From an uncultured Roseobacter sp. (lineage in GTDB: Bacteria > Pseudomonadota > Alphaproteobacteria > Rhodobacterales > Rhodobacteraceae), in contig NZ_CANLYL010000008.1 in the NCBI RefSeq assembly GCF_947495275.1, forward strand, positions 124,001-188,000: DNA of 64,000 nucleotides, given 5' to 3'. A program made the translations under genes and the position numbers. Positions 339 to 17,925 of this stretch are shown piece after piece. The notes under the pieces are model-generated. The model was not told the origin of the DNA. It worked only from the letters and a program-made list of their open reading frames with translations, and did not search any database. Numbering within the stretch: the first letter of the stretch is position 1; each line of letters opens with the position of its first letter.

Positions 339-920
339 TTACCGCAACCCGTCCTCGCCAGTCACCTGCCAGCTTTCCAACCCACCCATGCGACTATGGA
401 CACGGCCGCCGCATGACATCGCCAATGCGAATACGATTTCGTCAGCTTTCGGGCCATCAGGCAAGCCGACTTCGATTCCGTCGAAATGGCTCCGCACGTA
501 AGCGGCATTGATATGCCCCAGCGGGACATCCAACCGCGAACCGATACCACCGCGTTTCATACAGGATGGAACAATCGCATTCGACTGTCCCAACAGGCCG
601 CGCATCGCGTAGCCGCCAGGCACATGCCAAAGTGCTGCATGCTCAAGCTCCCCAGCTTCCCCGACAATCGCGCCTTTTCCATAGCCATCAATCGCCTCCC
701 TGCCTCCCAAGGCGGCGATCAAGCGTTCACTCATTTCTGATCCAAGCGGTTTCAGATCCTCCATGGCAGGTTGTAAGTCGGGCACAAAATGACCTGCGAA
801 CGGGTTGTGCACGCAAGCGATCATCGCGCCCAGACGCCGCTTGGATTCAGGCGCGGGCCCACCATCATGGTGCACCTCTTCCACGATCAGCTGCATTTTT
901 CGGATTCGGAATTCAGGCAT
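339..920 (-). CDS. Amino acid synthesis family protein (PF06684, formerly DUF1185)
   Basis: This 193-residue protein matches the small family annotated as 'amino acid synthesis', whose fold is reported to resemble the chorismate mutase-like fold; its reaction is not established. The start ATG at 918-920 overlaps the end of the UPF0280 gene by 8 bp, so it is the last gene of a five-gene translationally coupled operon. From that context I infer a role in processing an intermediate made by the upstream molybdenum hydroxylase and 6-hydroxynicotinate reductase-like protein, rather than in amino acid biosynthesis. The family call is good and the role is inference. Confidence 0.8.
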   Translation of the reverse strand: MPEFRIRKMQLIVEEVHHDGGPAPESKRRLGAMIACVHNPFAGHFVPDLQPAMEDLKPLGSEMSERLIAALGGREAIDGYGKGAIVGEAGELEHAALWHVPGGYAMRGLLGQSNAIVPSCMKRGGIGSRLDVPLGHINAAYVRSHFDGIEVGLPDGPKADEIVFALAMSCGGRVHSRMGGLESWQVTGEDGLR

Positions 921-1758
921 CGTTCAATATCTCCTGCGCATGGGTTTTAACCCCAGATTGGACGTTTCGCATCTGCCCCTGAAACAGCAAGGTCGCACCG
1001 TCGATCAGACCACGATCGCACAGCGCGCGCGCAATCTTCTGGCCACGATCCAGCGCCGTTTTCTTGTCTTCTTCAGGCTGAGGGGGCACATCCACGGTCA
1101 CCAGACGATCCCCCAGATCGCTATCTGGTGACAATTCGCAGGCGCGCTGCCGTATGATCGTCCTGTTACCTGGCAGATCAACCGCGTTTGCGATCAACGT
1201 CGCCGCAACATCTGCCTGGGCTGCAGAGCTGGCAACGACTGTCACCGCGTCCGCAATGCCAAGGGAATGGCTCCGACCTCGCCAACCGGATGTTGCAATT
1301 CCCCGGGCATCGTCCTGAGACCCCAGGCGAATTTTTCCAGCAGGCCCCATCAACGAGAATTCCTGCCCTTCGGAAAGATGGAACGCAATGTCACCGCCAT
1401 TGTTGACATAGGCTTTGGTCAAACTTCGATCTTCTACCATGGCTTTGAGCATCTCATCTGCAACAGCACCGGCAACCGCCGCCATAGGCGTCACGTAAAC
1501 CGCCCCAAACGGGGCCACCGCCCTCGCCATGCGCCAGGCAATCGGGTCGGCAAAACGCGTATGTCCGGTCAAGGGGCGTCGCAGATTTGGCAATTCCGAG
1601 ACAAGACCCGACAGGACCACTTCAAAGCGATGCGCAGCAGCCTCATAGGCAGCGCGCCAGTCCTTGCCCCAGGCTTCGATGATAAGATCAATGGGGCCGT
1701 GGTGCAAATGCAGGCGCCTGTCATCCGGCAACATGTGAACCTGGGGGCGGGCCGTCAT
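913..1758 (-). CDS. UPF0280 family protein (ApbE-like fold)
   Basis: This 281-residue protein belongs to UPF0280, a family related in fold to ApbE, the FAD:protein FMN transferase, but without proven activity. The start ATG at 1756-1758 overlaps the upstream gene stop by 4 bp and its own end overlaps the next gene, so it is embedded in the hydroxylase operon. Conserved glycine-rich parts such as 'GAVADEMLKAM' and 'YVNNGGDIAFHL' are visible; the latter resembles the 'NxGGD' motif of ApbE-like proteins. It could be a flavin-handling accessory factor for the operon's redox enzymes or an enzyme in its own right. Neither is shown by sequence alone. Confidence 0.85.
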   Translation of the reverse strand: MTARPQVHMLPDDRRLHLHHGPIDLIIEAWGKDWRAAYEAAAHRFEVVLSGLVSELPNLRRPLTGHTRFADPIAWRMARAVAPFGAVYVTPMAAVAGAVADEMLKAMVEDRSLTKAYVNNGGDIAFHLSEGQEFSLMGPAGKIRLGSQDDARGIATSGWRGRSHSLGIADAVTVVASSAAQADVAATLIANAVDLPGNRTIIRQRACELSPDSDLGDRLVTVDVPPQPEEDKKTALDRGQKIARALCDRGLIDGATLLFQGQMRNVQSGVKTHAQEILNDA

Positions 1759-3188
1759 TCCGCACCCCCCAAAATCCGGCTATCCGCGCCGTATTCGCCA
1801 CCCGCTTCGAGAACATCATCCAACGCGCGGATCACTGTCTCATGCCCGCCCAAGGCCACATATTCCGCGCGCGATGTTGTGAATTCCAAGGGCGCGACCA
1901 GCGCCGGGGTCGGCACATAGCCAAATGCACCATCCGGCAGTTGAGCGACATCAACCATCAGGGTGATGCCACCACCCGGCCAGACATAGGCCGGCACACC
2001 ACCCACGGTCACGCGGGTTTGTTCCCGTTGGACAGATTGGGTGAGATGAATGGGATTGCGCGTCACACCTGATCTGAGCGATCCCCCCGCGCCCCCCATG
2101 AACAGTACGGTACATGACGCGGGCTCACAGTTCTGCGCGATCAGATCGACCGATTGCTGCAACTCGGTTGGCATCGGCTGGGCTTTGGGTTCCAGATCGT
2201 CATCGAGGACAAAATAGGCGGAATGTTCGCCCGTGGTGGAGACCATCAACAGGCTCAGCCCGGGCCGAGCGCCTTTGGCTTCCCGCCACGAGCCAAGAAT
2301 GCTCAGGGGATCATCAATGTCGGTGCCTCCCCATCCCATCCCTGGTGCGGCCACACGGAAATACCGCCCCGGGGTTGATCGATGCCCAAGGATGCGAATA
2401 CCGGTATCGGCCCAGTCGATCACCTTGCCCGCCTGATGTTCGGACACAACCCCGGTGATGTGATCATCCACAACGACAACCTCGTCGACGAGCCCCTTCC
2501 ATTGCGAGGCAAACATGCCGATTGTTGCGGAACCGCAGCCCACACGCATGCGATCCTCTGGCGTGCCATCCACGATGGGAGGTGCCCCGGCCTGAACGAT
2601 CACTGTTGAGCCCCCGTCAATGGCCAGCTCCACCGCTTCCTTGTTGCAAAGTCGCAAAAGGGCATCACAGGTTTTGCGCCCTTCTGATTTCGACCCGCCG
2701 GTCAGATGATCCACACCCCCCAATGACAGCATTTGCGAACCGTACTCGGAGGTCATGACATGACCGATGATCTCGCCATCACTGCGCACCTGGGCGGTTT
2801 CGCGCCCCAAATGCCTGTCTGTGTCGATTTTCACTTTGACACCGCAGTAGGAAAAGATCGCCTCGGTCACGACCGTGACGCAATCAATACCTTCGATCTC
2901 GCGACTGACGATAAACGGGGCCGGTTTGTAGTCGGGGTAGGTCGTACCGGCCCCAATTGCCGATACCACGACATCCGCGCCAGAGGCTGTGCGACCGTCC
3001 CAATCCGCCGCCAGAAAGGGTTTGATCTCGTCCCCCTTCGCTACGCGCCGATCCAGAATAGTCAGCGGATCACACCGAATGATCTTGCCACCCTCATTGG
3101 CGTAGCGGTCGCAGGCACCGGCCCGACCGTCGGCGATGTAACACATCACCGGGCAGGCATCGCAACGGATCTTTTCAGGGCGCGTCAC
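1755..3188 (-). CDS. 6-hydroxynicotinate reductase-like iron-sulfur protein
   Basis: This 477-residue protein resembles 6-hydroxynicotinate reductase, the ferredoxin-dependent enzyme of anaerobic nicotinate fermentation that reduces the pyridone ring to 1,4,5,6-tetrahydro-6-oxonicotinate. The N terminus carries Cys9, Cys12, Cys16 and Cys26 (CX2CX3CX9C), a likely iron-sulfur site; the remainder is glycine-rich without an obvious signal peptide, so it is probably cytoplasmic. It overlaps the preceding hydroxylase gene by 4 bp and the following UPF0280 gene by 4 bp. The placement next to a molybdenum hydroxylase fits hydroxylation followed by ring reduction. The substrate here is unknown and nicotinate itself is not demonstrated. 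Confidence 0.75.
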   Translation of the reverse strand: MTRPEKIRCDACPVMCYIADGRAGACDRYANEGGKIIRCDPLTILDRRVAKGDEIKPFLAADWDGRTASGADVVVSAIGAGTTYPDYKPAPFIVSREIEGIDCVTVVTEAIFSYCGVKVKIDTDRHLGRETAQVRSDGEIIGHVMTSEYGSQMLSLGGVDHLTGGSKSEGRKTCDALLRLCNKEAVELAIDGGSTVIVQAGAPPIVDGTPEDRMRVGCGSATIGMFASQWKGLVDEVVVVDDHITGVVSEHQAGKVIDWADTGIRILGHRSTPGRYFRVAAPGMGWGGTDIDDPLSILGSWREAKGARPGLSLLMVSTTGEHSAYFVLDDDLEPKAQPMPTELQQSVDLIAQNCEPASCTVLFMGGAGGSLRSGVTRNPIHLTQSVQREQTRVTVGGVPAYVWPGGGITLMVDVAQLPDGAFGYVPTPALVAPLEFTTSRAEYVALGGHETVIRALDDVLEAGGEYGADSRILGGAE

Positions 3189-5920
3189 GTGTTTTGCCCC
3201 AGGGCGGCCAAAACCCGATGCGGCAAGGCGGGAACCTTGGTTATTCTGGCCCCGGATGCATGGCGAATGGCGTTCAGAATTGCCGGTGCCGTCGGGATCA
3301 GCACATGCTCGCCCAACCCCTTTGCCCCCATGGGCCCCTCAGGGTCCGGTTTCTCAACCAGTATCGACACCACCTCAGGCATATCCCCAATGGTCGGGAT
3401 CAGATAGTCATGCAGGTTGTCGGTATGTCCCGGTATGAACTCCTCCATCAACGCGAGGCCCAGCCCCTGCGCAATGCCCCCTTCGATTTGACCTTCGGCC
3501 AGAAGAGGATTGATCGCCCGCCCCAAATCATGCGCAGCCGTTACGCGGAGGACCCGGGTGGTGCCCAATTGGATATCGACCTCCACCTCGGCGATCTGGG
3601 CACCATAACCATAGACGGCATAGGGCGTTCCCTGGCCATCTTCATCCAGCGGCGTTGTTGGAGGGTCATAGGTCTCTTCAGCCTTCAACACATATCCGAA
3701 GGCATCGACCTGCATCGTCGAGAGATCAATCGCCTGGGTCGACGCCCCTTCGTGGACGATGATCACACCCTCTGATCGGGTGATTTCGGAGGCATCTGAA
3801 AAATTTGTCTGACGCAGGATGCGGGACCGCAACGCCCTGCCCGCGGCCTCAGCGGCCTTACCCGTGATATAGGTTTGGCGCGAGGCCGAGGTCTTGCCAC
3901 AATCGGGGGTCAGGGCTGTGTCGGGCCCGAGGAGTTCAATATCCGCCAGAGGCACTCCCAGAGCGTCGGCCGCAATCTGCGCGATAACCGTGTTGGCGCC
4001 CTGGCCGACATCTGTTGCTCCCTGATGCAATCGAATACGCCCTTGCGGCGTGATGCCGATGCGGATCGTCGAGGGGTTTGGCAACGCGGTGTTGCCACAG
4101 CCATACCAGCACGAGGCGATCCCGACACCGCGGCGTTTCTCCTTCGCCGTTTTGTTGAATCTCTGGGCGGAAGCCAACGCCCGATCCCAGTGTGGTTGGA
4201 GTTGGTGCAGGCAATCAGCGATCCCAACCGCAGAAAGCACCTGTCCGCAGGGGGTCTGGTCCCCGTCCGTGAATGCGTTCAATTGACGAAACGCGAGGCG
4301 ATCCATACCGCATTTCTCTGCCAGCTCATCATAGAGCATTTCCTGACAGATTGCCGCCTGTGGGACACCGAAGCCTCTGAAAGCCCCTGCTGTCGGGCCG
4401 TGGGTATGAATTGCCCGGCTGGTCGCCCGATAGTTTGGCGTTTTGTAGGGCCCGCAGGCATGCACCGGGACCCGTGTCGCCACGGTCGGGCCCCAACTGG
4501 CGTAAGCCCCGGTGTTGAAATCGCCGTGGAAAGTCATCCCAGTGATCCGGCCTTGCCCGTCAGCGCCGATCGTCGCTGTCATGGTGCCCGGGTGGCGTTT
4601 GGTCGTCGCCTGCATGGATTCGTTGCGGGTAAAAACCATGCGGCACGGCTTCCCGGTCTTGAGCACCGCCAAACCGATAAGAGGTTGCACCGAGAGATCA
4701 AGCTTGGCACCAAATCCCCCGCCCGCGGCAGCGGGAATGATCCGCAACTTCTCTGGCGGCAGCCCCAGTACTTTGGCAGTGTCATTGCGGTCCATGAAGG
4801 GTGCCTGTGTGCAGGCCTGAACCACAAGTGTGTCCTCCTCCAGCCAACCGACGCCAGCCTCCGTTTCGATATAGGCGTGTTCGACATAGGAGGTCCTGAA
4901 AGTGCCGGATACGGCATGGGCTGCATGCTCAAGCGCGCTCTCTGGTTGGCCCGACACGACATTCCCGCGGATGAGCGTATTGCCCGGCCGCTTTGCATGC
5001 ACCTGCGGCGCGCTGGCCGCAGCGCCATCGCGCTCGGTCAGCACGTGGGGTTGCGGTGTCCAGCTGACAGGAAAACCCGTCAAATCGAGCGCTTCGACGA
5101 TGCTGGCTTCACCCACGACGAGAGCAACCGGTTCACCGAGAAAACGCGCTTCATGTTCCGCCAGAGCGGGTTGATCCGCCAGCGGTGGAATAACCCCGAA
5201 GGCGTTTTCACCTTCAATATCCCGCGCTGTCAGCACAGCCTCCACGCCGGGCCGGGTCGCCTGCCAACTTTCAATGTCGCCAAAACTGAATCCCGCACGA
5301 AAATGCGGCGACCGTATCGCCCTGACAAGCAACGCGCCTTCCGGCACATAGTCAGCACCAAAAACCTCTGATCCATCCACTTTTGCCCGGCCGTCAAGCC
5401 GGGTTACGCGTGCCCCAACTGCCTGCCCAATGCCCGGCATTGTCCCGGGCGGACTCTCCAGATTGACCGCCATCACGGCAGAGACGATTTTGCGGTATCC
5501 GGTGCAGCGGCACAAAACACCGCCCAGCGCCGTTTCGACTTCCGCTTCGGTGGGCCGGGGCACGTTTCTTAGCAGATCCATTGCGGCCATCATGATCCCG
5601 GGTGTGCAAATACCGCATTGTGCAGCTCCGTGCGCCAGAAACGCGTCTTGCAATCGCCCACGCAACCCTGGCTCGGACCTTTCCAGCGTCTCTATGTCCT
5701 TGCCGCCAGCCTGAATGGCCGGGATCAGGCAGGCGCAGTTTTGGGCACCATCGATCAACACCGTGCAAGCACCGCAATCACCAGCATCACAACCGGATTT
5801 GACACTTTTCAAACCTGCATGATCTCGCAATGCATCGGACAGTCGCATGCCCGGTGCCACAAATATCGCCTGGGGTTCACCGTTGATCGTCAGCTCAATG
5901 TGTTGTTCATGCGCGGTCAT
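3185..5920 (-). CDS. Fused [2Fe-2S] and molybdopterin subunit of a xanthine dehydrogenase-family hydroxylase
   Basis: This 911-residue protein fuses the small iron-sulfur subunit (residues 1 to about 165) to the large molybdenum subunit (about 170-911). Cys44, Cys49, Cys52 and Cys64 form the plant-type cluster; a second 'CGIC...CRC' set near residues 100-140 forms the other. The Mo part has a 'GGGFGAK' segment and the C-terminal 'GAKGLGEH' with the catalytic glutamate. Such enzymes insert a water-derived oxygen into a C-H bond next to a ring nitrogen. The FAD subunit is a separate gene directly upstream with 4-bp overlap. The fused FeS-Mo layout resembles aldehyde oxidoreductase Mop, but the separate FAD gene and operon point to an N-heterocycle. 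Confidence 0.9.
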   Translation of the reverse strand: MTAHEQHIELTINGEPQAIFVAPGMRLSDALRDHAGLKSVKSGCDAGDCGACTVLIDGAQNCACLIPAIQAGGKDIETLERSEPGLRGRLQDAFLAHGAAQCGICTPGIMMAAMDLLRNVPRPTEAEVETALGGVLCRCTGYRKIVSAVMAVNLESPPGTMPGIGQAVGARVTRLDGRAKVDGSEVFGADYVPEGALLVRAIRSPHFRAGFSFGDIESWQATRPGVEAVLTARDIEGENAFGVIPPLADQPALAEHEARFLGEPVALVVGEASIVEALDLTGFPVSWTPQPHVLTERDGAAASAPQVHAKRPGNTLIRGNVVSGQPESALEHAAHAVSGTFRTSYVEHAYIETEAGVGWLEEDTLVVQACTQAPFMDRNDTAKVLGLPPEKLRIIPAAAGGGFGAKLDLSVQPLIGLAVLKTGKPCRMVFTRNESMQATTKRHPGTMTATIGADGQGRITGMTFHGDFNTGAYASWGPTVATRVPVHACGPYKTPNYRATSRAIHTHGPTAGAFRGFGVPQAAICQEMLYDELAEKCGMDRLAFRQLNAFTDGDQTPCGQVLSAVGIADCLHQLQPHWDRALASAQRFNKTAKEKRRGVGIASCWYGCGNTALPNPSTIRIGITPQGRIRLHQGATDVGQGANTVIAQIAADALGVPLADIELLGPDTALTPDCGKTSASRQTYITGKAAEAAGRALRSRILRQTNFSDASEITRSEGVIIVHEGASTQAIDLSTMQVDAFGYVLKAEETYDPPTTPLDEDGQGTPYAVYGYGAQIAEVEVDIQLGTTRVLRVTAAHDLGRAINPLLAEGQIEGGIAQGLGLALMEEFIPGHTDNLHDYLIPTIGDMPEVVSILVEKPDPEGPMGAKGLGEHVLIPTAPAILNAIRHASGARITKVPALPHRVLAALGQNT

Positions 5921-6771
5921 GCGACCAATCCCGATGATGCCCTCAGGCCGCCGACCATGCGCTGCAACAATACCGTCGCGGCATCGATCCGGTACGCGGC
6001 GGTGGCGCGGATGTCGTCAATGGGATGCAATGTCTCTGCAACCAACGCAGGGGGGATAGATGCGTCCGAAACTCTGCGTCCTGTCAGATGCGCTTCCAAG
6101 GCAGGCAGTCGGGTCGCGACCGGTCCGCAAGACCCGACCGAGATCGCGGCACTCAAGATCAGACCATCCGCCACCTGAATACGTGTCGCGGCCATCACGA
6201 TGGAGATCACAAGATATTTCCGTGCCCCGAGCTTCACAAAGCTGCCGGCACCCTGAAGCGCCGATTTCGGGATGAAGATATGTGTTACCAGCTCGTCATG
6301 GTGGCGCTCAGTCTGGCGCGGGCCGGTGATGAACTGCGCCAAAGGTATCTGGCGCCTGCCTCTGATCGAGCAAAGCCCGACCTCTGCATCGAGAGTCAGG
6401 AGCGGTGGCACGCCGTCTGCCGCCGGAGAGGCGTTACACAGATTGCCCGCAATCGTGCCCCGGTTCTGAATTTGCAGCGCCCCGACTTCGCGTGCGGCCA
6501 GTTGCAGCCCAAAGAGCGACGGAGGAAGATCGGCCGTGGCAATATCGCGCCATGTCGTCGTCGCGCCTATCTGAGTGCCTTCGTCATCCTGGCGAATTCC
6601 GCGCAACGCCGGAATAGCGGTAATATCCAGCACCGGGCCCTGCAGGGATTTCCGGTCAGTCGCCGGGAAAAGGTCCGTGCATCCGGCGGCGATCGTCAAA
6701 TCTTCATCAGCCAGCGCCTGAATTGCCTGCTGCAAATCAGGCGGTCTTAGGTATTTCGCCGGGTGCGACAT
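5917..6771 (-). CDS. FAD-binding subunit of a xanthine dehydrogenase-family hydroxylase
   Basis: This 284-residue protein is the medium, FAD-carrying subunit of a molybdenum hydroxylase. It has an N-terminal PCMH-type FAD domain with 'AAGCTDLFP' and the 'NRGTIAGNLCNASPAAD' segment that contacts FAD, followed by a CO dehydrogenase flavoprotein C-terminal domain. It would pass electrons from the [2Fe-2S] clusters of the next gene product to an acceptor. It is the first gene of the five-gene operon and starts 69 bp from the divergent marR gene. A near-palindromic operator candidate lies 17-30 bp upstream of the start. Confidence 0.92.
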   Translation of the reverse strand: MSHPAKYLRPPDLQQAIQALADEDLTIAAGCTDLFPATDRKSLQGPVLDITAIPALRGIRQDDEGTQIGATTTWRDIATADLPPSLFGLQLAAREVGALQIQNRGTIAGNLCNASPAADGVPPLLTLDAEVGLCSIRGRRQIPLAQFITGPRQTERHHDELVTHIFIPKSALQGAGSFVKLGARKYLVISIVMAATRIQVADGLILSAAISVGSCGPVATRLPALEAHLTGRRVSDASIPPALVAETLHPIDDIRATAAYRIDAATVLLQRMVGGLRASSGLVA

Positions 6772-6787
6772 GATTCACCGAGATTGC

Positions 6788-6801
6788 TCGTATACAAACA
6801 G
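6788..6801. promoter_or_regulatory. Operator candidate between the hydroxylase operon and marR
   Basis: The sequence TCGTATACAAACAG matches 10 of 14 positions of TTGCATACAAGCAA, which lies upstream of the hydantoinase genes, and resembles the perfect palindrome upstream of the ABC transporter. It sits in the 68-bp divergent gap where it could repress both directions. The binding protein is probably the neighbouring MarR regulator, although GntR regulators use similar TTGTATACAA-type sites. Confidence 0.55.
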
Positions 6802-6839
6802 ATGTTGCGGCAGGGCGCGCAAGCTGTCAATAAAATCAC

Positions 6840-7271
6840 ATGAGTTCAAAACGATCAGACGTAGATGCGTACCAGTTATCCGAGCAAGCCGGGTTCAACC
6901 TCAGGCGCGCGAACCAGAGACATGTGGCTATTTTCTCGAAATTGGTGAAGGGCCTGACGCCCACTCAGTTTGCGGCCCTGGCGCGGTTGAACGAACATGG
7001 TGCCATTTCGCAGAACAGGCTGGGACGGTTGACCGCAATGGACAGCGCCACCATCAAAGGTGTGGTCGAGCGGCTTAAGGCCAAGGGTCTGGTTCTATCT
7101 CGTTCGGACTTGAAAGATCGCCGTATGCGGCTCGTCGAGCTCTCGGATAAAGGTCGGTCTGTTTTTGAAACGGAACTGGTGGCGGCCCTTCATGCCCGTA
7201 CCGAAACCCTCGCACCACTGACCGAAGAAGAGGCGAAAACCTTCGAGGCCTTGCTGAGCAAGCTGGTTTAG
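6840..7271 (+). CDS. MarR family transcriptional regulator
   Basis: This 143-residue protein is a typical MarR winged-helix regulator: the recognition region 'QNRLGRLTAMDSATIKGVVERLKAKGLV' (about residues 60-87) is followed by the wing 'RSDLKDRRMRLVELSDKG'. MarR proteins bind palindromes as dimers and release DNA when a small, often aromatic, ligand binds. It diverges from the hydroxylase operon with a shared operator candidate at 6788-6801, and converges on the ABC transporter operon with a 3-bp gap. It is the best candidate regulator of the three blocks that carry the shared motif. Confidence 0.9.
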   Translation: MSSKRSDVDAYQLSEQAGFNLRRANQRHVAIFSKLVKGLTPTQFAALARLNEHGAISQNRLGRLTAMDSATIKGVVERLKAKGLVLSRSDLKDRRMRLVELSDKGRSVFETELVAALHARTETLAPLTEEEAKTFEALLSKLV

Positions 7272-7274
7272 TTT

Positions 7275-7970
7275 TCAGACACCCACGTATTTCTTCAAAA
7301 GCGGTGAGGCGGCGGTCAGGTCACTTGTATCAACCACCTCCCTGCTATGGCCATTTTCGATGAAGGCTACCCGGTCCGACAGCGTCAGGACCGCCTCAAT
7401 ACGCTGCTCCACAAGGACAATCGCGACACCTTGTGCGCGCATGGCCTCGACCGTTTCGCGGATGAGCTGGATCATGGACGGTTGCAACCCTTCGGTAGGT
7501 TCATCCAACAGCAGCACCGAAGGCTCAAGACAAAGAGCACGGGCGGTGGCCAGCATCTGCTGTTCGCCACCCGACAGGGTTTCCGCGCGCTGGTCGAGAC
7601 GCTCGCTTAAACGAGGAAACATCTCCAGCACGCGCGCCCTAGTGGCCCTTCCGTTGCCGCGTGCCATCAATCCGATTTCGATGTTTTCCGAAACGGTCAG
7701 TTCCGAAAAGAGCCGCCGCCCCTGCGGCACATAGCCAATGCCGCGCTTTGGCACCTCATGGGCGGGCAGCGCAGTGATGTCGGCCCCGTTCAGGGTGACC
7801 GTGCCGCCAGACAGCGGCAACAACCCCATGATCGCCTTCAGCGTTGTGGTTTTTCCGGCACCGTTACGGCCCAACAGACATAAAACCTCTCCCGCACGGG
7901 CTTCCAGATCGAAATCGTAGAGCACCTGAACCGGTCCGTATCCCGCGCCGACGCCCGCCAGTTTCAACAT
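7275..7970 (-). CDS. Branched-chain amino acid-type ABC transporter ATPase (LivF family)
   Basis: This 231-residue ATPase has Walker A 'GRNGAGKTT', the signature 'LSGGEQQ' and Walker B 'LLLDEP', and is of the LivF type. It starts with an ATG at 7968-7970 behind GGGAG and overlaps the LivG-type gene by 7 bp. It is the last gene of a five-gene uptake operon in the order binding protein, LivH, LivM, LivG, LivF. Liv-type systems carry amino acids, amides, urea and aromatic acids; here the context suggests the substrate of the neighbouring heterocycle-degradation genes. Confidence 0.92.
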   Translation of the reverse strand: MLKLAGVGAGYGPVQVLYDFDLEARAGEVLCLLGRNGAGKTTTLKAIMGLLPLSGGTVTLNGADITALPAHEVPKRGIGYVPQGRRLFSELTVSENIEIGLMARGNGRATRARVLEMFPRLSERLDQRAETLSGGEQQMLATARALCLEPSVLLLDEPTEGLQPSMIQLIRETVEAMRAQGVAIVLVEQRIEAVLTLSDRVAFIENGHSREVVDTSDLTAASPLLKKYVGV

Positions 7971-8662
7971 GTCTCCCGCCCTAGATAAGCGTCCTGCACA
8001 TGCCGGTTGGCGCTGATCTCATCCGGGGTGCCCGTGGCCAGAACCGCGCCGCGCTGCAAAACCGTAATCTCATCGGCCAGAGACATCACCACATCCATGT
8101 TGTGCTCGATCAGCAGGATTGTGGTGTCGCCTGCAAGACTGCGGATAAGCGTGTTGAAACCGGCAATCTCGCTTTCCGAGAGCCCCTGTGTCGGCTCATC
8201 AAGGATCAGCAATCGCGGGGCCTGCGCGACACCCATGGCAATTTCCAGCAACCGCTGATGCCCGTAGGACAGATCGCCCGCGACCTGGTCAATGCGGTCA
8301 GCCAGAGCCACCCGGGCGAGGGCTTTTGTTGCGGCGGCACGGTCCCGTGTGCCTTGTGCCAGAGCAATGTTTTCAAAAAGGCTGAGGCGTGCATAGATCG
8401 CGGTGATCTGGAACGTATAAGCCATTCCGAGCCGCATGCGTTTATGCGCAGGCCAGCCGCTGATATCGCGCCCGTTGAACCAGACTTCGCCAGCGCTGGC
8501 GGGAATGCGGCCCGAGACCATGCCGACAAAAGTGCTTTTACCCGCACCATTGGGGCCAATCAGCGCGTGAATGCCGCCCTTTTGTAATGTGAAATCCACC
8601 GCATCCACCGCCGTCAGACCGCCGAAATGGCGTGTCAGGTTTTTGGTTTCCAGCACAGTCAT
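7964..8662 (-). CDS. Branched-chain amino acid-type ABC transporter ATPase (LivG family)
   Basis: This ATPase (about 232 residues) has Walker A 'GPNGAGKST', a LivG-type signature 'LSYGHQR' and Walker B 'LLILDEP'. I place the start at the ATG at 8660-8662, which overlaps the TGA of the upstream permease in an ATGA arrangement; an in-frame GTG three codons earlier is possible. It pairs with the LivF-type ATPase that follows and energises uptake through the two permeases upstream. Confidence 0.9.
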   Translation of the reverse strand: MTVLETKNLTRHFGGLTAVDAVDFTLQKGGIHALIGPNGAGKSTFVGMVSGRIPASAGEVWFNGRDISGWPAHKRMRLGMAYTFQITAIYARLSLFENIALAQGTRDRAAATKALARVALADRIDQVAGDLSYGHQRLLEIAMGVAQAPRLLILDEPTQGLSESEIAGFNTLIRSLAGDTTILLIEHNMDVVMSLADEITVLQRGAVLATGTPDEISANRHVQDAYLGRETC

Positions 8663-9603
8663 GGCAACCACGGCACCCAGCGTTTGCGTATTTCGCCCAT
8701 GATGCCCGAGCGGGCGAAAAGCACCAGCAGCACCAGTGCGACGCCCGCGATCAGCATATAGGCATTGGTAAACCCGCTTGAATAGTCAATCAGATAGAAC
8801 ATGAAGACCGCCCCCACCAACGGGCCAATCGTTGTCCCGGCTCCGCCAAGGAGCACCCAAAGCAAAGGAAAAATCGAATATTGTACGGACGCGAAAGTGG
8901 CCCCCACATAGCCAAAGAGCAGACCATAGGCGGCCCCCGCAGCACCAGAGATACTGCCGGAGATCACGACCGCCAGAAACTTGTGCCGGAAGACATCATA
9001 GCCCAGCATCTGCGTGCGCTCTTCGTTTTCGCGCACGGCAATCAGCACATGGCCAAAGCGCTGCTGCATGATCCGTGCAGTGATCAGCAGAGCCGTCGAA
9101 AACAGCAGCAGCGCCGCCAGATAGCGGGTGGTCGGGTCCGTCAGGTCGAGCCCCATGATCTGGCGCGCGGCTTGCGGAATGACAAACCCCTCATCGCCGC
9201 GTGTCCATGTGCCGAAATAGAGGATGCTCAGGAAAACGCATTGCGCAAACATCAGCGTGACGATCATGAAGGCCACTCCAATGGTCCGGAGTGCCAGCAG
9301 CGCCACCAGTGCCGACAGCAGGGCCGCGCAGAGAACCCCGATTACAAAAGCCGGAAGCGGTGCAAGGCCTGCCAGATGCATCGGCAACCCCAACCCGTAA
9401 AGACCGGCGGCGAAAAACATCGCGTGGCCTAGACTGAGCAGACCCGTGTAACCGAACAGGACGTTGTAACCGATGGCGTAGGTTGCCAGCACCAGAATGC
9501 GCGCCAGATTGCCCTGATGATAATCCGACAGCGTGAAACACAAGATAAACAGGATCGCAATCAGGCTCATGTGCAGCGCGATGGACCGGGCAGACAGGCT
9601 CAT
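8659..9603 (-). CDS. Branched-chain amino acid-type ABC transporter permease (LivM family)
   Basis: This 314-residue polytopic membrane protein is a LivM-type permease, with several hydrophobic helices and the family's 'GYNVLFGYTGLLSLGHAMFF' segment near residues 43-62. It overlaps the LivH-type gene upstream by 4 bp and the LivG-type ATPase downstream by 4 bp, so the components are translationally coupled. It forms the membrane channel together with the LivH-type permease. Confidence 0.92.
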   Translation of the reverse strand: MSLSARSIALHMSLIAILFILCFTLSDYHQGNLARILVLATYAIGYNVLFGYTGLLSLGHAMFFAAGLYGLGLPMHLAGLAPLPAFVIGVLCAALLSALVALLALRTIGVAFMIVTLMFAQCVFLSILYFGTWTRGDEGFVIPQAARQIMGLDLTDPTTRYLAALLLFSTALLITARIMQQRFGHVLIAVRENEERTQMLGYDVFRHKFLAVVISGSISGAAGAAYGLLFGYVGATFASVQYSIFPLLWVLLGGAGTTIGPLVGAVFMFYLIDYSSGFTNAYMLIAGVALVLLVLFARSGIMGEIRKRWVPWLP

Positions 9604-10526
9604 GCGCGTTTCTTTCCGTATAACCCCTGCGGCCGAAAAACGAGCACAAGGGCGACCAGCAATGTGGCGAGGATTTTGGCAAGCGTCGGGCTGAAGAAAA
9701 CCGAGATGATGCCGTCCGACATGCCGATCAGCAGGGCCGCAACCACCGTGCCGCGCAACGAGCCCAATCCGCCAATGATCACAACGATGAAGCTGAGCAG
9801 CAACGGGTCCGCGCCCATCAGGTAATGCGCCTGCTGTATCGGCACGATCAGAACGGCAGCAAAGGCGGCCAGTGCCGCGCCCAGCCCGAAGACCAGTGAA
9901 TAGACCCGTTCCACAGGAATGCCAAAAGCCAGAGCCGTTTCCCGATCAAGTTGCGTGGCCCGCATGATCAACCCGAACCGCGAGCGTGACAGAAACAGGG
10001 CAAAACCGATCAGGATGGCGGCAGCGGCTGCAATGACGAAAAGTTTGTAGGACGTGGTGCTCAGCCCCCAGGGGTAGAAAAGCGCCAGACCGTTTTCCCC
10101 CCATTCCACCCACGGCAGGGCGATCCTTGTGTTGAAGGGCGGTGCTACGGGGCGCGCTTCGGGGCCAAAACCCATCAGCGCTGTCTGTTGCATGATGTAG
10201 AGAATGCCAATGGTCGCAACAATTGTCGCTTCGGGGTCATAGTGTAGCCGTTTGAGCACCAGCCTGTCTGCTGCCATAGCAACAACCGCCGCGCATACCG
10301 GCGCGATCAGTAGTGCGGCGACAAACCCGGTGGCGGGCGCGCTGCCCAGAGTGCTGGCCACAAACCAGGCGACAACGGCCCCCAGCATGTAGAATTCGCC
10401 ATGGGCGACATTGACCACGCGCATGACCCCAAAGACCAGAGACAGCCCCAGAGCGGTCAATGCCAGCACCGCCGCACCGACAGCGCCCTCCAGCGTGGCA
10501 AGTAGGAGATGGGGACCAAATTCCAT
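9600..10526 (-). CDS. Branched-chain amino acid-type ABC transporter permease (LivH family)
   Basis: This 308-residue membrane protein is a LivH-type permease with about eight hydrophobic segments and the conserved 'GLSLVFGVMRVVNVAHGEFYM' region at the N terminus and 'GGLGSLRGTVVAALLIG' near the C terminus. The start is 49 bp downstream of the binding protein gene. It is the partner of the LivM-type permease. Confidence 0.92.
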   Translation of the reverse strand: MEFGPHLLLATLEGAVGAAVLALTALGLSLVFGVMRVVNVAHGEFYMLGAVVAWFVASTLGSAPATGFVAALLIAPVCAAVVAMAADRLVLKRLHYDPEATIVATIGILYIMQQTALMGFGPEARPVAPPFNTRIALPWVEWGENGLALFYPWGLSTTSYKLFVIAAAAAILIGFALFLSRSRFGLIMRATQLDRETALAFGIPVERVYSLVFGLGAALAAFAAVLIVPIQQAHYLMGADPLLLSFIVVIIGGLGSLRGTVVAALLIGMSDGIISVFFSPTLAKILATLLVALVLVFRPQGLYGKKRA

Positions 10527-10575
10527 GCGCGCGACGCGGCAGCGAAGGCACAGCCCGCCCTGCCGCGATTTTCCT

Positions 10576-11853
10576 TCAGAACGTCATTGTGGTGTAGTCG
10601 ACCTCGTCAGGGTACAGCGTGTCTTCGATGGAGGTTGCATGCACGCGCAGCAGTTTTCCACCTTCCACACGGCTGATGTATTGCTTGCCAAAGACCTGAT
10701 GGGTCTTGCCGTTGAAGACCTTCGGGCCTTGCGGATGCGCGTCGCTTTCGGCCATGTCGGACATGGCTTCGACCGCCTCAATCAGTTTCTGGCGGTCCTG
10801 CGGGCCCTGATAATCGGCGGCTTCCATACCAGCCTTGATCACATGCAGGGTCTCCCAACAGCCAAACATATGGGCATAGGTGGAGACATCGGCAGGGTCT
10901 GAAACGGATGCCCCGTTCTCGTCAACACCTACAGCGGCGCGGAAATTCTTGTCAAAGCTGGTCTGATCCGCTTGCGCATACCGCGGGTTGCCCTCCCAGA
11001 AATAGGTGCCTTCCAGAAACTCGAGACCGGGCGAGCTGAGATCAACCGCTTCCAGCGAGTCGATGAAGCCAAAGATTTCAGGGCTGGAGGGGCCGAAAAA
11101 CTCGCCCAGTTCCTTCACAAAGGTCAGGACCGCCGGGCCCACCATCACATGATAGAGCACTTCCGTGTCGCGCGGGATTTTGGGGAAGTATTTCGTGAAG
11201 GATGTCTCGGTTGGCGGGATCGCGATATGCTCAAGCACTTCACCTCCCTGTGCTTCAATCGCGGCGGTAAAGAAATCGCGGTGATCATGGCCAAAGGCAA
11301 AATCGGGAAAGATCATCGTGACCTTCTTGCCAAGGTTCTCGCTGACGTAGGGTGCCATGGCCTGAACCTGACTTTTCACATCCGTAATGCCGGGTTGCAG
11401 CGTATAACGGTTGAGCTTGCCCGAGGCCACGTGATGCCCTTCGGACACCACGAAATAGGGCATCTTCTGCTCGCCCGCAGCCGGCGCGGAGCCGTAGACC
11501 ACATGGCTGAAAAGCGTGCCAAAAGCCACGTCCGTACCATGCTGATTGGCAAATTTCTCAACCACTTCGGCACCGCGCTTGGGGTCGGTGCCATCGTCTT
11601 CGGCGATAATTTCCACCGGGCGTCCGTTGATGCCGCCGGCCTCATTGATGGCTTTGACCGCCGCATCCGTCGTGCGCCCGTACCAACGCCCGTAGGCGGC
11701 ACCAATGCCGGTCGCGTGCTGTTGGAAGCCGATCTTGATGGGTGCAGATGATTGCGCGCTGGCAAATCGCGCTACCAGCGGGGAGGCTGTCAGCAAACCG
11801 CCCGCGGCGGCACCCTTGAGTAAACTACGTCGGCTTGTCATCAGTTTTGGCAT
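10576..11853 (-). CDS. Liv-type ABC transporter substrate-binding protein with Tat signal
   Basis: This protein of about 425 residues is a periplasmic type I binding protein of the Peripla_BP_6/LivK class. I choose the ATG at 11851-11853, preceded by GGGAGAG 10 nt upstream; an upstream in-frame ATG would add nine residues without a ribosome site. The N terminus has a twin-arginine signal (TSRRSLLKGAAAGG) and a cleavage-like 'ARFASA'. It is the first gene of the transporter operon, with a perfect palindromic operator candidate 83-96 bp upstream. Proteins of this subgroup bind amides, aromatic acids or amino acids; the ligand is not evident. Confidence 0.9.
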   Translation of the reverse strand: MPKLMTSRRSLLKGAAAGGLLTASPLVARFASAQSSAPIKIGFQQHATGIGAAYGRWYGRTTDAAVKAINEAGGINGRPVEIIAEDDGTDPKRGAEVVEKFANQHGTDVAFGTLFSHVVYGSAPAAGEQKMPYFVVSEGHHVASGKLNRYTLQPGITDVKSQVQAMAPYVSENLGKKVTMIFPDFAFGHDHRDFFTAAIEAQGGEVLEHIAIPPTETSFTKYFPKIPRDTEVLYHVMVGPAVLTFVKELGEFFGPSSPEIFGFIDSLEAVDLSSPGLEFLEGTYFWEGNPRYAQADQTSFDKNFRAAVGVDENGASVSDPADVSTYAHMFGCWETLHVIKAGMEAADYQGPQDRQKLIEAVEAMSDMAESDAHPQGPKVFNGKTHQVFGKQYISRVEGGKLLRVHATSIEDTLYPDEVDYTTMTF

Positions 11854-11935
11854 TGTCTCAACTCTCCCGGTTGGCGGCATTTGTGTCGGACCACATTCAT
11901 CTCAGGGCCTCGTATTTCCTGCGCCCAATGATTGT

Positions 11936-11949
11936 TTGCATACATGCAA
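11936..11949. promoter_or_regulatory. Operator candidate upstream of the Liv-type ABC operon
   Basis: TTGCATACATGCAA is a perfect 6-bp inverted repeat around an AC centre, in the gap between the ABC operon start (11853) and the end of the membrane protein gene (12003). It differs at one position from the site upstream of the hydantoinase genes at 14204-14217. Confidence 0.65.
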
Positions 11950-12002
11950 CTTGTCCAGAAATTTATTTCATACACGGCTTGGACGCGGTTTCGTCGACCG
12001 GT

Positions 12003-13379: not shown

Positions 13380-13408
13380 AGGCGCATTAATAAACGGGAT
13401 CCGCCCTA

Positions 13409-14182: not shown

Positions 14183-14203
14183 GTCAAGAGGCCAGCGCTT
14201 TAC

Positions 14204-14217
14204 TTGCATACAAGCAA
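14204..14217. promoter_or_regulatory. Operator candidate upstream of the hydantoinase pair
   Basis: TTGCATACAAGCAA lies 20-33 bp upstream of the hydantoinase A start and matches the palindrome upstream of the ABC operon at 13 of 14 positions. The position close to the start fits repression. Confidence 0.65.
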
Positions 14218-14236
14218 TCTCTCATGAGGGTTCAAT

Positions 14237-16282
14237 TTGACACGCGGCGGAATAATCGGGATCGATGTCGGAGGGACTTTTACCGATCTGGTGATGCTCG
14301 ATGACACGACAGGTAGCCTGCGCATCGCCAAAACGCCCACCACGCTGGACAATCAGGCCTATGGCGTCCTAAAGGCCCTTGCCGAGGCTCAGGCAGATCT
14401 GACACAGGTCGATCTGATCGTGCATGGCACAACGACCACAACCAACGCTGTGCTTGAACGCAAGCTGTCCAAAACCGGGCTGATCACCACAGCGGGATTT
14501 CGGGATGTGCTGGAACTGGGGCGCAGGACACGTCCGCAACCCTATGGCATGAAAGGGCAATTCACGCCGATCATCCCGCGCGATCTGCGCCTGGAAGTAC
14601 CCGAACGCATGGACGCGCAAGGCAACGTGCTGACGCCCCTTGATGAGCCTGCCTTGCGCACCGCCATCGCCAACCTGCTGGACGCAGGGTGCGAAGCTCT
14701 GGTGATCCATTTCCTGCACGCCTATGCGAACCCCGCGCATGAACTGCGCGCCGCCCAGATTGCCGCAGAACTTTGGCCCAATACCTATATCACGACCGGG
14801 CACAGCTTGCTGTCGGAAACGCGCGAATACGAACGCGGTGTCACCGCTGCGGTCAATGCCTCCGTTCAGCCTTTGCTGGAGCGCTATCTGACCCGTTTGC
14901 GCGACGAATTGGGCCGTCAGGGATATGACGGTGATGTGCTGGTGATGAACGGCAACGGCGGCATGGTCTCGTCCCGTCTGGTCGCGCGCGAAGCTGCAAA
15001 AACGGTCATGTCAGGCCCCGCATCCGGCGTGATGGCCGCCGCCTACACCGGCAGGCGGGCGGGCGAATTGAACCTGCTGACCTATGACATGGGGGGCACA
15101 TCGACGGATGTGGCCCTGATCCGCGACGGTCACCCGCCTGTCTCAAACGAGATCGAAGTTGAATACGCCATGCCGATCCATGTGCCCATGGTTGACGTGC
15201 GCACGGTTGGCGCCGGGGGCGGGTCCATTGCAAGGGTCAACGCCGCCGGGCTGCTGGAGGTTGGGCCCGAAAGTGCCGGTGCGACCCCCGGCCCCATGTG
15301 TTACGGAAAAGGCGGCATGCGACCGACGATTTCGGATGCCAACCTGCTGCTGGGACGGCTCAACCCGGAGAAACTGAACGCGATTGACGGCGGCGTTGAT
15401 CAGAAGGCAATCGCGCGGGTTTTCGCAACGGAACTAGGGGCACCCTTGGGTGTCGATGCCCTCACCGCAGCTGAAGCCGTCATTCAGGTTGCAAACGCCA
15501 AGATGTCCGGAGCCATACGCATGGTCTCGCTGTCGCTGGGGGCCGATCCGCGGGATTTCGCGCTCTTTGCCTTTGGCGGCGCGGGGCCACTGCATGCCGC
15601 AGCACTGGCGCGCGAACTGGGCGTGCCGCGCGTGATCATCCCCGCGCGTCCGGGTCTGACCAATGCGCTGGGGTGCGTCGTGGCCGATCTGCGGCACGAC
15701 TACGTTCAGACGGTCAACCAGCCGTTGGACACGGCGGATATGGACAAAGTGCACGAGATTTTCGCGCAACAGGTGGCATTGGGCAACGCGGCCCTTGCAC
15801 AGGAAAAAATCGCGATCCTTGAGACCCGATGTGATTTCAGTGTCGATATGCAGTTCGTCGGGCAAAGCCATGTGGTGCGCGTCCCGCTTGACGCTGCCAC
15901 CCCGAGCCGTCCGGAGCTACGTGCCCGGTTCGAGAAGGTCTATTGGGATCGGTTCAAGGTCGAACTGACCGAAATCAATGCTCGTATCGTGTCATTGAAT
16001 TGCTCGGTGATTGGTCATTGCGAACCGCTTGATCTGGAAAAACTGATCGCGCCGGAAGGCCGGAAGCCCATCGCCCAACCCACCACGACGCGAGCGGTGA
16101 TTTTTGACGGCGCGCCCCACGACACCCCGGTTTACTGGCGCGATCACTTGCCCGAAGATGTCTCGCTTGAAGGGCCTGCGCTGATCGAGCAGTCCGATTG
16201 CACCATTCTGATCCCGCCCGGAGACAGGGCAGACGGTGGTGCGGATGGCAACCTCGTGATCCATATCGGAGGGGCGGCATGA
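14237..16282 (+). CDS. Hydantoinase/oxoprolinase family protein, subunit A
   Basis: This 681-residue protein is an ATP-dependent hydantoinase/5-oxoprolinase alpha-type subunit. The N-terminal ASKHA ATPase fold shows 'GIDVGGTFTDLVMLDD' and the later phosphate motif 'DMGGTSTDVALI'; family enzymes phosphorylate a lactam or hydantoin carbonyl to drive ring opening. The start is a TTG with GAGGG about 8 nt upstream; the ATG at 14224 is out of frame. The stop overlaps the subunit B start (ATGA). With the molybdenum hydroxylase and reductase nearby, it could open a reduced lactam ring. The substrate cannot be read from sequence. Confidence 0.9.
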   Translation: MTRGGIIGIDVGGTFTDLVMLDDTTGSLRIAKTPTTLDNQAYGVLKALAEAQADLTQVDLIVHGTTTTTNAVLERKLSKTGLITTAGFRDVLELGRRTRPQPYGMKGQFTPIIPRDLRLEVPERMDAQGNVLTPLDEPALRTAIANLLDAGCEALVIHFLHAYANPAHELRAAQIAAELWPNTYITTGHSLLSETREYERGVTAAVNASVQPLLERYLTRLRDELGRQGYDGDVLVMNGNGGMVSSRLVAREAAKTVMSGPASGVMAAAYTGRRAGELNLLTYDMGGTSTDVALIRDGHPPVSNEIEVEYAMPIHVPMVDVRTVGAGGGSIARVNAAGLLEVGPESAGATPGPMCYGKGGMRPTISDANLLLGRLNPEKLNAIDGGVDQKAIARVFATELGAPLGVDALTAAEAVIQVANAKMSGAIRMVSLSLGADPRDFALFAFGGAGPLHAAALARELGVPRVIIPARPGLTNALGCVVADLRHDYVQTVNQPLDTADMDKVHEIFAQQVALGNAALAQEKIAILETRCDFSVDMQFVGQSHVVRVPLDAATPSRPELRARFEKVYWDRFKVELTEINARIVSLNCSVIGHCEPLDLEKLIAPEGRKPIAQPTTTRAVIFDGAPHDTPVYWRDHLPEDVSLEGPALIEQSDCTILIPPGDRADGGADGNLVIHIGGAA

Positions 16283-17925
16283 GCATTGATCCCATTACCC
16301 TGTCGGTCATTCAGGCCGGGTTGCAGCAGGTTTGCGATGAAATGGACCTCAGCTTTTCGCGCGCGGCCTTCTCACCGGTGATTGCCGAGGCCAATGACCG
16401 GTCCGACGGAATATATGCCGCCGAAGATGGCGCGCTGATCGCCCAAGGTGCCGGCGGGCTGCCGGTCTTTGTCGGCACAATGCAATATTCGACCCGCACT
16501 CTGATCGAGATGATCAATTCCGGCGCTGTCGCCGCGCCAAAACCCGATGATGTCTATATCGTGAACGATCCCTACCTCGGCGGCACCCACCTTATGGATG
16601 TGCGGTTTGCCCGGCCCTTTTACCGGCATGGCGAGATTTTTTGCTGGCTGTCCAATACAGGTCACTGGCCCGACACCGGCGGTTCCGTGCCGGGCGGATT
16701 TTCCGCCTCCGCCACGGCGGTCGAACAGGAAGGGTTGCGCCTGCCGCCCGTGCGGCTTTTCAAACAGGGCGTCATGGACCGGGAGATCTACAGCATCATC
16801 TACTCCAACATCCGGGTGGCCGATCAGAGGATCGGGGACGTCAAGGCTCAGGCCGCCGCCTTGAAAGTGGGCGAGGACCGCCTGAACGCGCTGCTGGATC
16901 GCTATGGTGATACCGTCGTGCGCGCGGCGATTGCCGAGTTGCGGGAACGGGCCGCGCGCCAGATGCGCCGGTTGATCGACGAAATCCCCGATGGCCTGTA
17001 CAGTTCCGTGGCCTGGATCGACAGCGACGGTGTGGTCAACGAGCCGCTGGCCATCAGGCTGCGAATCACGAAAACGCCCGGCCACCTGCAATTCGATTTC
17101 TCACAAAGCAGCCCGCCCTGTCTGGGTCCGATGAATTCGGTGCTGGCGACCACCCTGTCTTCGGTCTATCTCGCCATGCGCCACATCTTCCCCGAAGTGC
17201 CGATGAGTGCAGGCGCGTTCGAGCCGCTGGAGGTGATCCGGCCCGTCGGCACTTTCCTTGATGCGCGGTATCCGCGACCGGTCTCCGGCTGTGCCGCCGA
17301 GGTCAGCCAACGCATCGCGGAGGCGGTGTTTGCGGCACTGGTCGAAGCCCTGCCCGCCCGCGTCACCGCCGCCCCCGCTGGCACCAGCGGGAATTTCGCC
17401 CTTGGCGGGCACGACCCGGTCAGCGCGCGCGACTATGTGATGTATCAACTGTCAGGGGGCGGCTACGGCGGGAATGCCGATCACGACGGGCTGGCCAATG
17501 GATGCTCCACCATCGGGATTTCCAAGGCACCACCTGTGGAGATCATGGAACAGAACTTTCCCGTGCTCTACCGTCGCTATGCGCTGCGCGAAGGATCAGG
17601 TGGCGCGGGCCAGCATCGCGGCGGGCTTGGTCTGGATTACGAGATCGAACTGCGCCGTGGCGAGGCGCGCGCCAGTTTCGTGATGGATCACGGGCGCTTT
17701 GGGCCGCAAGGCGCGCTGGGGGGTGCGGATGGTGCGCCCAATGAAGTAGAGGTCTGGCGTGGCGGCGAGAAATATATTCCCGAACATCTCTCCAAAGAGC
17801 AGGACATCCCCTTGCAGGCCGGGGACCGCGTGAGGGTCCGAACCCCGGGAGGCGGCGGGTATGGGCGCGCCGAAGACCGCGACCCTGCGTTGATCGCAGA
17901 GGACAAGCGTCTGGGGCGCACGTGA
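16279..17925 (+). CDS. Hydantoinase/oxoprolinase family protein, subunit B
   Basis: This 548-residue protein is the hydantoinase B/oxoprolinase beta subunit, which forms a complex with subunit A and carries out the hydrolytic half of the ATP-dependent ring opening. It shows the family motifs 'VNDPYLGGTHLMDV' (about residue 95) and 'GGGYGGNADHDG', and ends with 'RVRTPGGGGYGRAEDRDP'. I set the start at the ATG at 16279-16281, which overlaps the stop of subunit A and is preceded by GGAGGGG; a longer frame extends into subunit A but lacks support. Confidence 0.92.
   Translation: MSIDPITLSVIQAGLQQVCDEMDLSFSRAAFSPVIAEANDRSDGIYAAEDGALIAQGAGGLPVFVGTMQYSTRTLIEMINSGAVAAPKPDDVYIVNDPYLGGTHLMDVRFARPFYRHGEIFCWLSNTGHWPDTGGSVPGGFSASATAVEQEGLRLPPVRLFKQGVMDREIYSIIYSNIRVADQRIGDVKAQAAALKVGEDRLNALLDRYGDTVVRAAIAELRERAARQMRRLIDEIPDGLYSSVAWIDSDGVVNEPLAIRLRITKTPGHLQFDFSQSSPPCLGPMNSVLATTLSSVYLAMRHIFPEVPMSAGAFEPLEVIRPVGTFLDARYPRPVSGCAAEVSQRIAEAVFAALVEALPARVTAAPAGTSGNFALGGHDPVSARDYVMYQLSGGGYGGNADHDGLANGCSTIGISKAPPVEIMEQNFPVLYRRYALREGSGGAGQHRGGLGLDYEIELRRGEARASFVMDHGRFGPQGALGGADGAPNEVEVWRGGEKYIPEHLSKEQDIPLQAGDRVRVRTPGGGGYGRAEDRDPALIAEDKRLGRT

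Follow-up and report, generated by a model that had tools for sequence, protein, structure and literature searches.

The window analysed here, a 64,000-nucleotide stretch from an uncultured Roseobacter sp. (C8:124001-188000 of a 5.08-Mb genome in 60 contigs), contains a gene cluster that is best explained as a nicotinate regulon of the reductive route, in which a two-subunit hydantoinase/oxoprolinase-type lactamase, HyuAB, opens 1,4,5,6-tetrahydro-6-oxonicotinate (THON). We put the probability of this explanation at about 0.7. Genomes that carry the reductase of this route (Hnr) have, almost without overlap, either HyuA or a relative of enamidase, and we infer that HyuAB replaces enamidase at the opening step. 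Overall, this is a known kind of pathway with a recurrent replacement at ring opening, together with two assignments of protein families to steps.

In the proposed route, a Liv-type ATP-binding cassette (ABC) importer would bring in nicotinate, which a molybdenum (Mo) hydroxylase with its flavin adenine dinucleotide (FAD) subunit would convert to 6-hydroxynicotinate. HnrL, a putative iron-sulfur reductase, would reduce this to THON, a six-membered enamide lactam. HyuAB and ATP would open the lactam, the job of the unrelated metal amidohydrolase enamidase in Eubacterium barkeri and probably in many relatives close to this cluster. Loss of ammonia from the released enamine would yield 2-formylglutarate, from which glutarate-type intermediates would follow. 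A PF06684 (AA_synth) protein would act at or after ring opening, a UPF0280 protein would serve the reductase, most simply as a flavin loader, and a MarR-family protein would act on a single operator sequence to regulate all three operons.

The sequence-only reading of this DNA had proposed an undescribed aerobic pathway for an N-heterocycle. Our results support its outline, in which hydroxylation is followed by reduction to a lactam and then by opening and which differs from the maleamate route, with the reactions themselves predicted. The word undescribed does not hold, and we rejected a wholly new pathway since related chemistry and clusters are already published. The accessible text of PMC9304392 gives a reductive route via THON in E. 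barkeri, where enamidase opens the ring with THON as its substrate, and in A. caulinodans, and terms it anaerobic; that of PMC3511419 (2012) terms A. caulinodans aerobic and describes a conserved Bradyrhizobiaceae cluster that encodes a homologue of Hnr, an importer of the ABC type and two unknown proteins, which may correspond to UPF0280 and AA_synth. The window shares the predicted order of hydroxylation, Hnr-type reduction and lactam opening with the E. barkeri route, and homologues of the enamidase from that species (2vun) occur in its relatives. The window differs in that its hydroxylase is a fused Mo/FeS protein and that HyuAB stands where enamidase would be expected. With the Azorhizobium caulinodans and Bradyrhizobiaceae SG-6C cluster it has aerobic hosts in common; the word hydantoinase is absent from PMC3511419. 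A substrate with an already described pathway, which the sequence-only reading had named as counting against it, is now very probable, while the substitution of an ATP-dependent opener for enamidase still looks new. Among the open-licence papers listed, we found none that connects the 6-hydroxynicotinate route to a hydantoinase or an oxoprolinase; PMC6346535 (on the nicotine transcriptome of a fungus) and PMC6129145 (on metabolites of sugarcane) mention both oxoprolinase and 6-hydroxynicotin and are, by title, on other subjects.

If correct, this would clearly exemplify a pathway step at which two unrelated enzymes have repeatedly replaced each other. It would also give a substrate to one orthologous group of the large and mostly unassigned hydantoinase/oxoprolinase family, and to UPF0280 and PF06684 roles that experiments can address directly.

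Two ring openers, probably at one step

Among all 61 genomes with Hnr, 28 have HyuA and 34 enamidase; two have both, and one, in which the reductase gene is decayed, has neither. One sample consisted of 100 genomes of the family, one per genus (HyuA counted at E <= 1e-190). The reductase, and with it the cluster, is common there: 41 genomes carry Hnr, 16 with HyuA, 24 with enamidase (one of these matches, in G029, being a fragment at a contig end), none with both and one with neither, whose HnrL frame holds five stops. HyuA orthologues are almost confined to Hnr-positive genomes (16 of 17), and the contig of the seventeenth begins inside the same gene order; one further family genome lacking HnrL has an amidohydrolase of 43% identity. 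A sample of 249 genomes of the phylum (HyuA at E <= 1e-150) contains 21 with Hnr, including that of the window. The other 20 comprise 12 with HyuA and 10 with enamidase, two having both and none neither; two HyuA matches of 43%, one in the family genome G029 and the other a second one in G251, were left uncounted.

Hypergeometric values for such counts ignore relatedness, for which a tree of Hnr is the better control. On this tree of 73 rows, which takes in 14 of 26 plasmid records and leaves out G014 (five stops in its frame) and G115 (two overlapping frames), the opener label needs at least six switches, five of them forced by well-supported branches. The 26 Hnr-positive plasmid records carry enamidase (at least 65% identity) in 16 cases and HyuA (at least 59.9%) in 10, with no overlap at those identities, 11 of the 16 belonging to two groups of closely similar Sulfitobacter plasmids. 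The plasmid of Sulfitobacter sp. S190 in this sample has an additional, more distant HyuA (43%), and amidohydrolases of 37-44% occur on nine plasmid records with no Hnr on the same record. In Sulfitobacter pontiacus the Hnr stretch has the amidohydrolase and not HyuAB; the protein matches the E. barkeri enamidase structure 2vun with 361 bits over nearly its full length. No enamidase orthologue was found in the host genome, the best match there reaching 26.3 bits over query residues 12-77. Both openers often lie close to the reductase: HyuA shares a contig with HnrL at a distance of at most 20 kb in 17 of its 28 genomes, and enamidase likewise in 23 of its 34.

The catalytic residues of HyuAB are conserved. 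HyuA D10 and D284 align with D11 and D295 of CapA, keeping the ATP-site aspartates, and HyuB D40, H104, D107 and H129 align with D41, H99, D102 and H124 of CapB, all four metal ligands. HyuAB thereby resembles CapAB caprolactamase and the oxoprolinases (6yra, PMC8453981) in subunit architecture, in the ATP-site Asp pair and in the Asp-His-Asp-His metal site, and differs in its proposed substrate, THON. For CapAB, the available part of PMC8453981 reports that ATP-site Asp mutants retain traces of activity and that metal-site mutants are inactive (the ligand is listed as Asp102, one mutant as D101A); for another member of the family, OplAB, the available part of PMC11033972 reports ATP-dependent opening of delta-valerolactam, a six-membered ring. 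We propose that HyuAB is an ATP-dependent THON opener. A caprolactamase proper was rejected, because HyuA scores 492 bits and HyuB 293 bits where the NCBIfam models for CapA and CapB have cut-offs of 1000.

Gene order and a common upstream sequence

The genes named by the sequence-only reading are all present at the positions given; the MarR gene had gone unmentioned. The features are as follows.

339..920, minus strand: AA_synth/DUF1185 (PF06684) protein, 193 residues (PF06684 222 bits, cut-off 27)
913..1758, minus strand: UPF0280 protein, 281 residues (NF003322 354 bits, cut-off 290)
1755..3188, minus strand: HnrL, 6-hydroxynicotinate reductase-like, 477 residues (from annotated database relatives)
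3185..5920, minus strand: Mo hydroxylase with fused [2Fe-2S] and Mo-cofactor domains, 911 residues (Pfam domains)
5917..6771, minus strand: FAD subunit of the Mo hydroxylase, 284 residues (FAD_binding_5, CO_deh_flav_C)
6780..6797, minus strand: operator-like site TTGTATACGAGCAATCTC between the MarR and FAD-subunit genes (pattern-defining)
6840..7271, plus strand: divergent MarR-family regulator, 143 residues (PF01047 40.5 bits)
7275..11880, minus strand: Liv-type ABC importer, LivF, LivG, LivM, LivH and LivK (open reading frames; Peripla_BP_6 on LivK, the one profile match, the other four being named by sequence alone)
11936..11949, plus strand: operator-like site TTGCATACATGCAA, one mismatch, upstream of LivK
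12003-14182: two genes separating the importer from HyuAB
14204..14221, plus strand: operator-like site TTGCATACAAGCAATCTC upstream of HyuA (pattern-defining)
14237..16282, plus strand: HyuA, ATP-binding subunit of the hydantoinase/oxoprolinase-type lactamase, 681 residues (Pfam)
16279..17925, plus strand: HyuB, metal-site subunit, 548 residues (Hydantoinase_B 520 bits)

On the minus strand the order is FAD subunit, fused Mo hydroxylase, HnrL, UPF0280 and AA_synth. Three of the junctions overlap by 4 bp and that of UPF0280 with AA_synth by 8 bp, which confirms the coupling of the UPF0280 and PF06684 genes that had been claimed. The divergent MarR gene sits between this hydroxylase operon and the Liv importer genes, and HyuAB lies on the opposite strand from the operon. 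HyuB probably starts at 16279, in an ATGA overlap, and not at the TTG at 16198 of the open reading frame list. Of the two genes at 12003-14182, the first looks multi-pass, has no Pfam match and has kin in 22 of the 80 loci described below; the second is PCuAC-like (copper-chaperone-like) and scores below the cut-off. On the 3' side of HyuAB, at 18333-19514, is a PF00909 ammonium transporter gene; ammonia is an expected product of ring opening.

The five-gene order, which the sequence-only reading had suggested seeking in other genomes, is conserved far beyond chance. We compared the best 80 of at least 586 HnrL relatives from a scan of named genomes, 56 of them with both 10-kb flanks; being chosen as closest to the HnrL of the window, these loci are not random, and many are from Mesorhizobium or Rhodobacterales and are not independent. 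UPF0280 is found in 77 of the 80 loci (and in all 56 with full flanks), the Mo hydroxylase in 73 (53), the FAD subunit in 67 (53), AA_synth in 66 (50), MarR in 58 (44), the nicotinamidase PncA in 37 (30), HyuA at 60% identity or more in 20 (17) and enamidase in none of either set. Fpr, a ferredoxin reductase, occurs in 19 of the 80, and LivF and LivK in 46 and 28 of the 56. UPF0280 lies immediately 3' of HnrL in 75 of the 76 loci with room for it, L026 being the exception.

The hydroxylase operon is preceded by a sequence almost identical to that in front of HyuA. A pattern built from both sites, TTGYATACRAGCAATCTC, matches the window at those two defining sites and nowhere else, against 0.09 matches expected, a figure calculated after the fact. 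Independent support comes from the third, related site upstream of LivK and from 94 loci, in which 48 sites of a 14-base core (at most two mismatches; a palindromic site may count twice) occur in 32 loci, against 11 in the reversed sequences and two in shuffles of the first 40 loci. Forty of the 48 lie between 30 bases inside and 260 bases upstream of the matched start of a cluster gene, compared with 15% of random positions. The genes concerned are the FAD subunit (18 sites), MarR (15), LivK (8), Fpr (5), HyuA (5), PncA (4), HnrL (4), enamidase (1) and a membrane-protein gene (1). Because an operator-like sequence precedes all three operons, the data suggest that they form one regulon, and the blocks thus appear co-regulated, as the sequence-only reading had supposed; the MarR protein may be what binds this sequence.

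Substrate and competing explanations

The substrate is very probably nicotinate, because related clusters carry PncA or the nicotinate dehydrogenase NicAB. PncA, at 50% identity or more to one reference that passes the NF008623 nicotinamidase model (219 bits, cut-off 174), lies upstream on the opposite strand in 35 of its 37 loci and downstream in two. NicB-like genes were identified in L084, L088, L090, L094, L097, L109 and L110 with the protein of L088 itself, named nicotinate dehydrogenase by its depositor, as query; the carriers are Neorhizobium, Paracoccaceae La6, Rhizobium lusitanum, Allorhizobium, a Comamonadaceae bacterium and genomes G046 and G273.

Several observations weigh against the nicotinate regulon with HyuAB as THON opener. 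The cluster in the window has neither PncA nor NicAB, the PncA of the host genome is on another contig adjoining nicotinate phosphoribosyltransferase, and NicB passes no NCBIfam cut-off. The Mo hydroxylase cannot by itself name the substrate, because aldehyde oxidoreductases are nearer to it in the PDB than nicotinate dehydrogenase, 3hrd being one of its more distant relatives. Enamidase is not described as requiring ATP, so that no advantage of an ATP-dependent opener is apparent. The two phylum-sample genomes with both openers also count against it, though there the enamidase belongs to another cluster, which includes AA_synth genes, a nucleoside-type importer and a MarR-like gene, and HyuA of at least 61% identity is found on seven plasmid records with no Hnr on the same record. 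As to regulation, the operator pattern was written after two sites had been seen by eye, and 62 of the 94 loci have no site at two mismatches or fewer.

Linkage bears on whether HyuAB belongs to the pathway at all. In the window it is on the opposite strand, beyond two unrelated-looking genes; HyuA is more than 20 kb from Hnr or off its contig in 11 of the 28 HyuA-positive genomes and lies in the flanks of just 20 of the 80 loci. These facts would fit a neighbouring hydantoinase/oxoprolinase kept by chance linkage. Its near confinement to Hnr-positive genomes, its near exclusion of enamidase and the upstream sequence common to HyuA and the cluster operons make this very improbable, and HyuAB as an unlinked neighbour was rejected on the phylogenetic profile and the shared upstream sequence. 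We also judge it improbable that the two openers act on different products, with HyuAB genomes carrying the reduction on to a plain delta-lactam, 6-oxopiperidine-3-carboxylate, that would need ATP for its opening. Such a further-reduced lactam would account for the ATP spent, and the characterised relatives of HyuAB open saturated lactams with ATP (available parts of PMC8453981 and PMC11033972). However, no second ring reductase was recognised among the 11 recurrent neighbour groups inspected, most of them by sequence alone; Fpr also accompanies enamidase (L084, L087, L092, L096); Hnr proteins from genomes with either opener interleave on one tree; and a second gene context likewise has HyuA in some cases and enamidase in others.

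That the substrate is another pyridine carboxylate (picolinate, homarine, which is N-methylpicolinate, or trigonelline), with HyuAB opening the corresponding lactam, seems to us unlikely, if somewhat less so. Many named relatives are marine, and fast homarine uptake is reported for the marine R. pomeroyi in the available part of PMC12817926; a 2026 paper reports, by its title, a homarine pathway. Four marine relatives (L086, L087, L091, L095) have in addition a Rieske oxygenase, encoded close to a pair of AA_synth genes and the importer, and this enzyme could be an N-demethylase, perhaps for trigonelline. Against this, PncA and NicAB mark the related clusters as nicotinate clusters, and homarine is converted to N-methylglutamate, a skeleton not directly given by the lactam route. 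The enzyme replaced is also kin of the E. barkeri enamidase, with THON as its known substrate (available part of PMC9304392).

Proposed roles of UPF0280 and PF06684

HnrL is 58.5-85% identical to proteins named 6-hydroxynicotinate reductase, names that are annotations and not assays. Its N-terminal cluster C9/C12/C16/C26, of Fe-S type, is invariant in 50 rows. It has no Pfam or NCBIfam match at E <= 0.001, and a solved relative was found neither by sequence nor through a moderate-quality model.

UPF0280 follows this reductase closely, occurring in 40 of 41 Hnr-positive and none of 59 Hnr-negative genomes of the family sample, and in all 21 and none of 228, respectively, of the phylum sample. 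Its predicted model has the fold of ApbE flavin transferases, whose Mg/FAD motif is GGD and D...T, and N119, G121, G122, D123, D183 and T187 are kept in 45 of 45 rows. It is thus like the ApbE/Ftp/FmnB transferases and DUF375 DVU1097 (2o34) in its predicted fold and its NNGGD and DxAAT motifs, and unlike ApbE/Ftp/FmnB in lacking a conserved histidine and in being tied to Hnr in both Pseudomonadota samples. UPF0280 may be the flavin-loading partner of HnrL. Two results speak against this role. The ApbE family has a catalytic histidine (H257 in the title of 6nxj), and no conserved counterpart was found in UPF0280, H164 of the candidate loop being His in 23 of 45 rows; nor was an HxxxP motif found in the protein. 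The ApbE target motif in substrate proteins is DxxSGAT, and no canonical copy was found in HnrL, the nearest being GSAT, with Thr in 57 of 68 rows. UPF0280 was not found by that name in the open-licence papers searched.

For PF06684, stretches with no HnrL are informative. All four that we examined pair AA_synth with an opener: L101 has HyuA, L106 and L107 have enamidase, and L169 has an amidohydrolase of 43% identity. The sample is small and not random, and Hnr is present elsewhere in the genomes of L106 and L107. That these stretches keep AA_synth and the opener suggests a tie of AA_synth to ring opening and of UPF0280 to reduction, and AA_synth may act on the ring-opened product. Solved relatives are 3byq and 2qtp. 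The family also includes BB2672 and SPO0826, the latter reported to lie beside branched-chain-type ABC transport genes (PMC2954203), and TgnF and HcdD, which belong to heterocycle catabolism (PMC7913881); the accessible text of neither paper settles a molecular function. Taken jointly, HyuAB as a repeatedly swapped ATP-dependent enamidase, UPF0280 as a histidine-less, ApbE-fold flavin transferase dedicated to Hnr, and PF06684 as handling the enamine or formyl product of either opener form a combination that we advance tentatively and consider doubtful as a whole.

L101 (9971-22031), L106 and L107 represent a second cluster type, in which HyuA or enamidase occurs with AA_synth, MarR, an isochorismatase-family hydrolase and a nucleoside-type ABC importer; a nucleoside hydrolase is annotated in that of L101, and the type possibly serves nicotinamide riboside breakdown. 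In Sinorhizobium medicae HyuA has a similar setting, and HyuB, whose match falls into two parts that lie in different frames, may be broken in that strain. The host genome has two further PF06684 genes. One is in L102 (C4:58000-74000), where positions 3703-9497 hold an aldehyde dehydrogenase, a luciferase-like monooxygenase, a flavin reductase, an alpha/beta hydrolase, AA_synth and a divergent LysR gene, a set that we take to resemble the trigonelline-type (Tgn-like) one. The other, which is shorter, is at 7642-8130 of L103 (C2:196000-212000).

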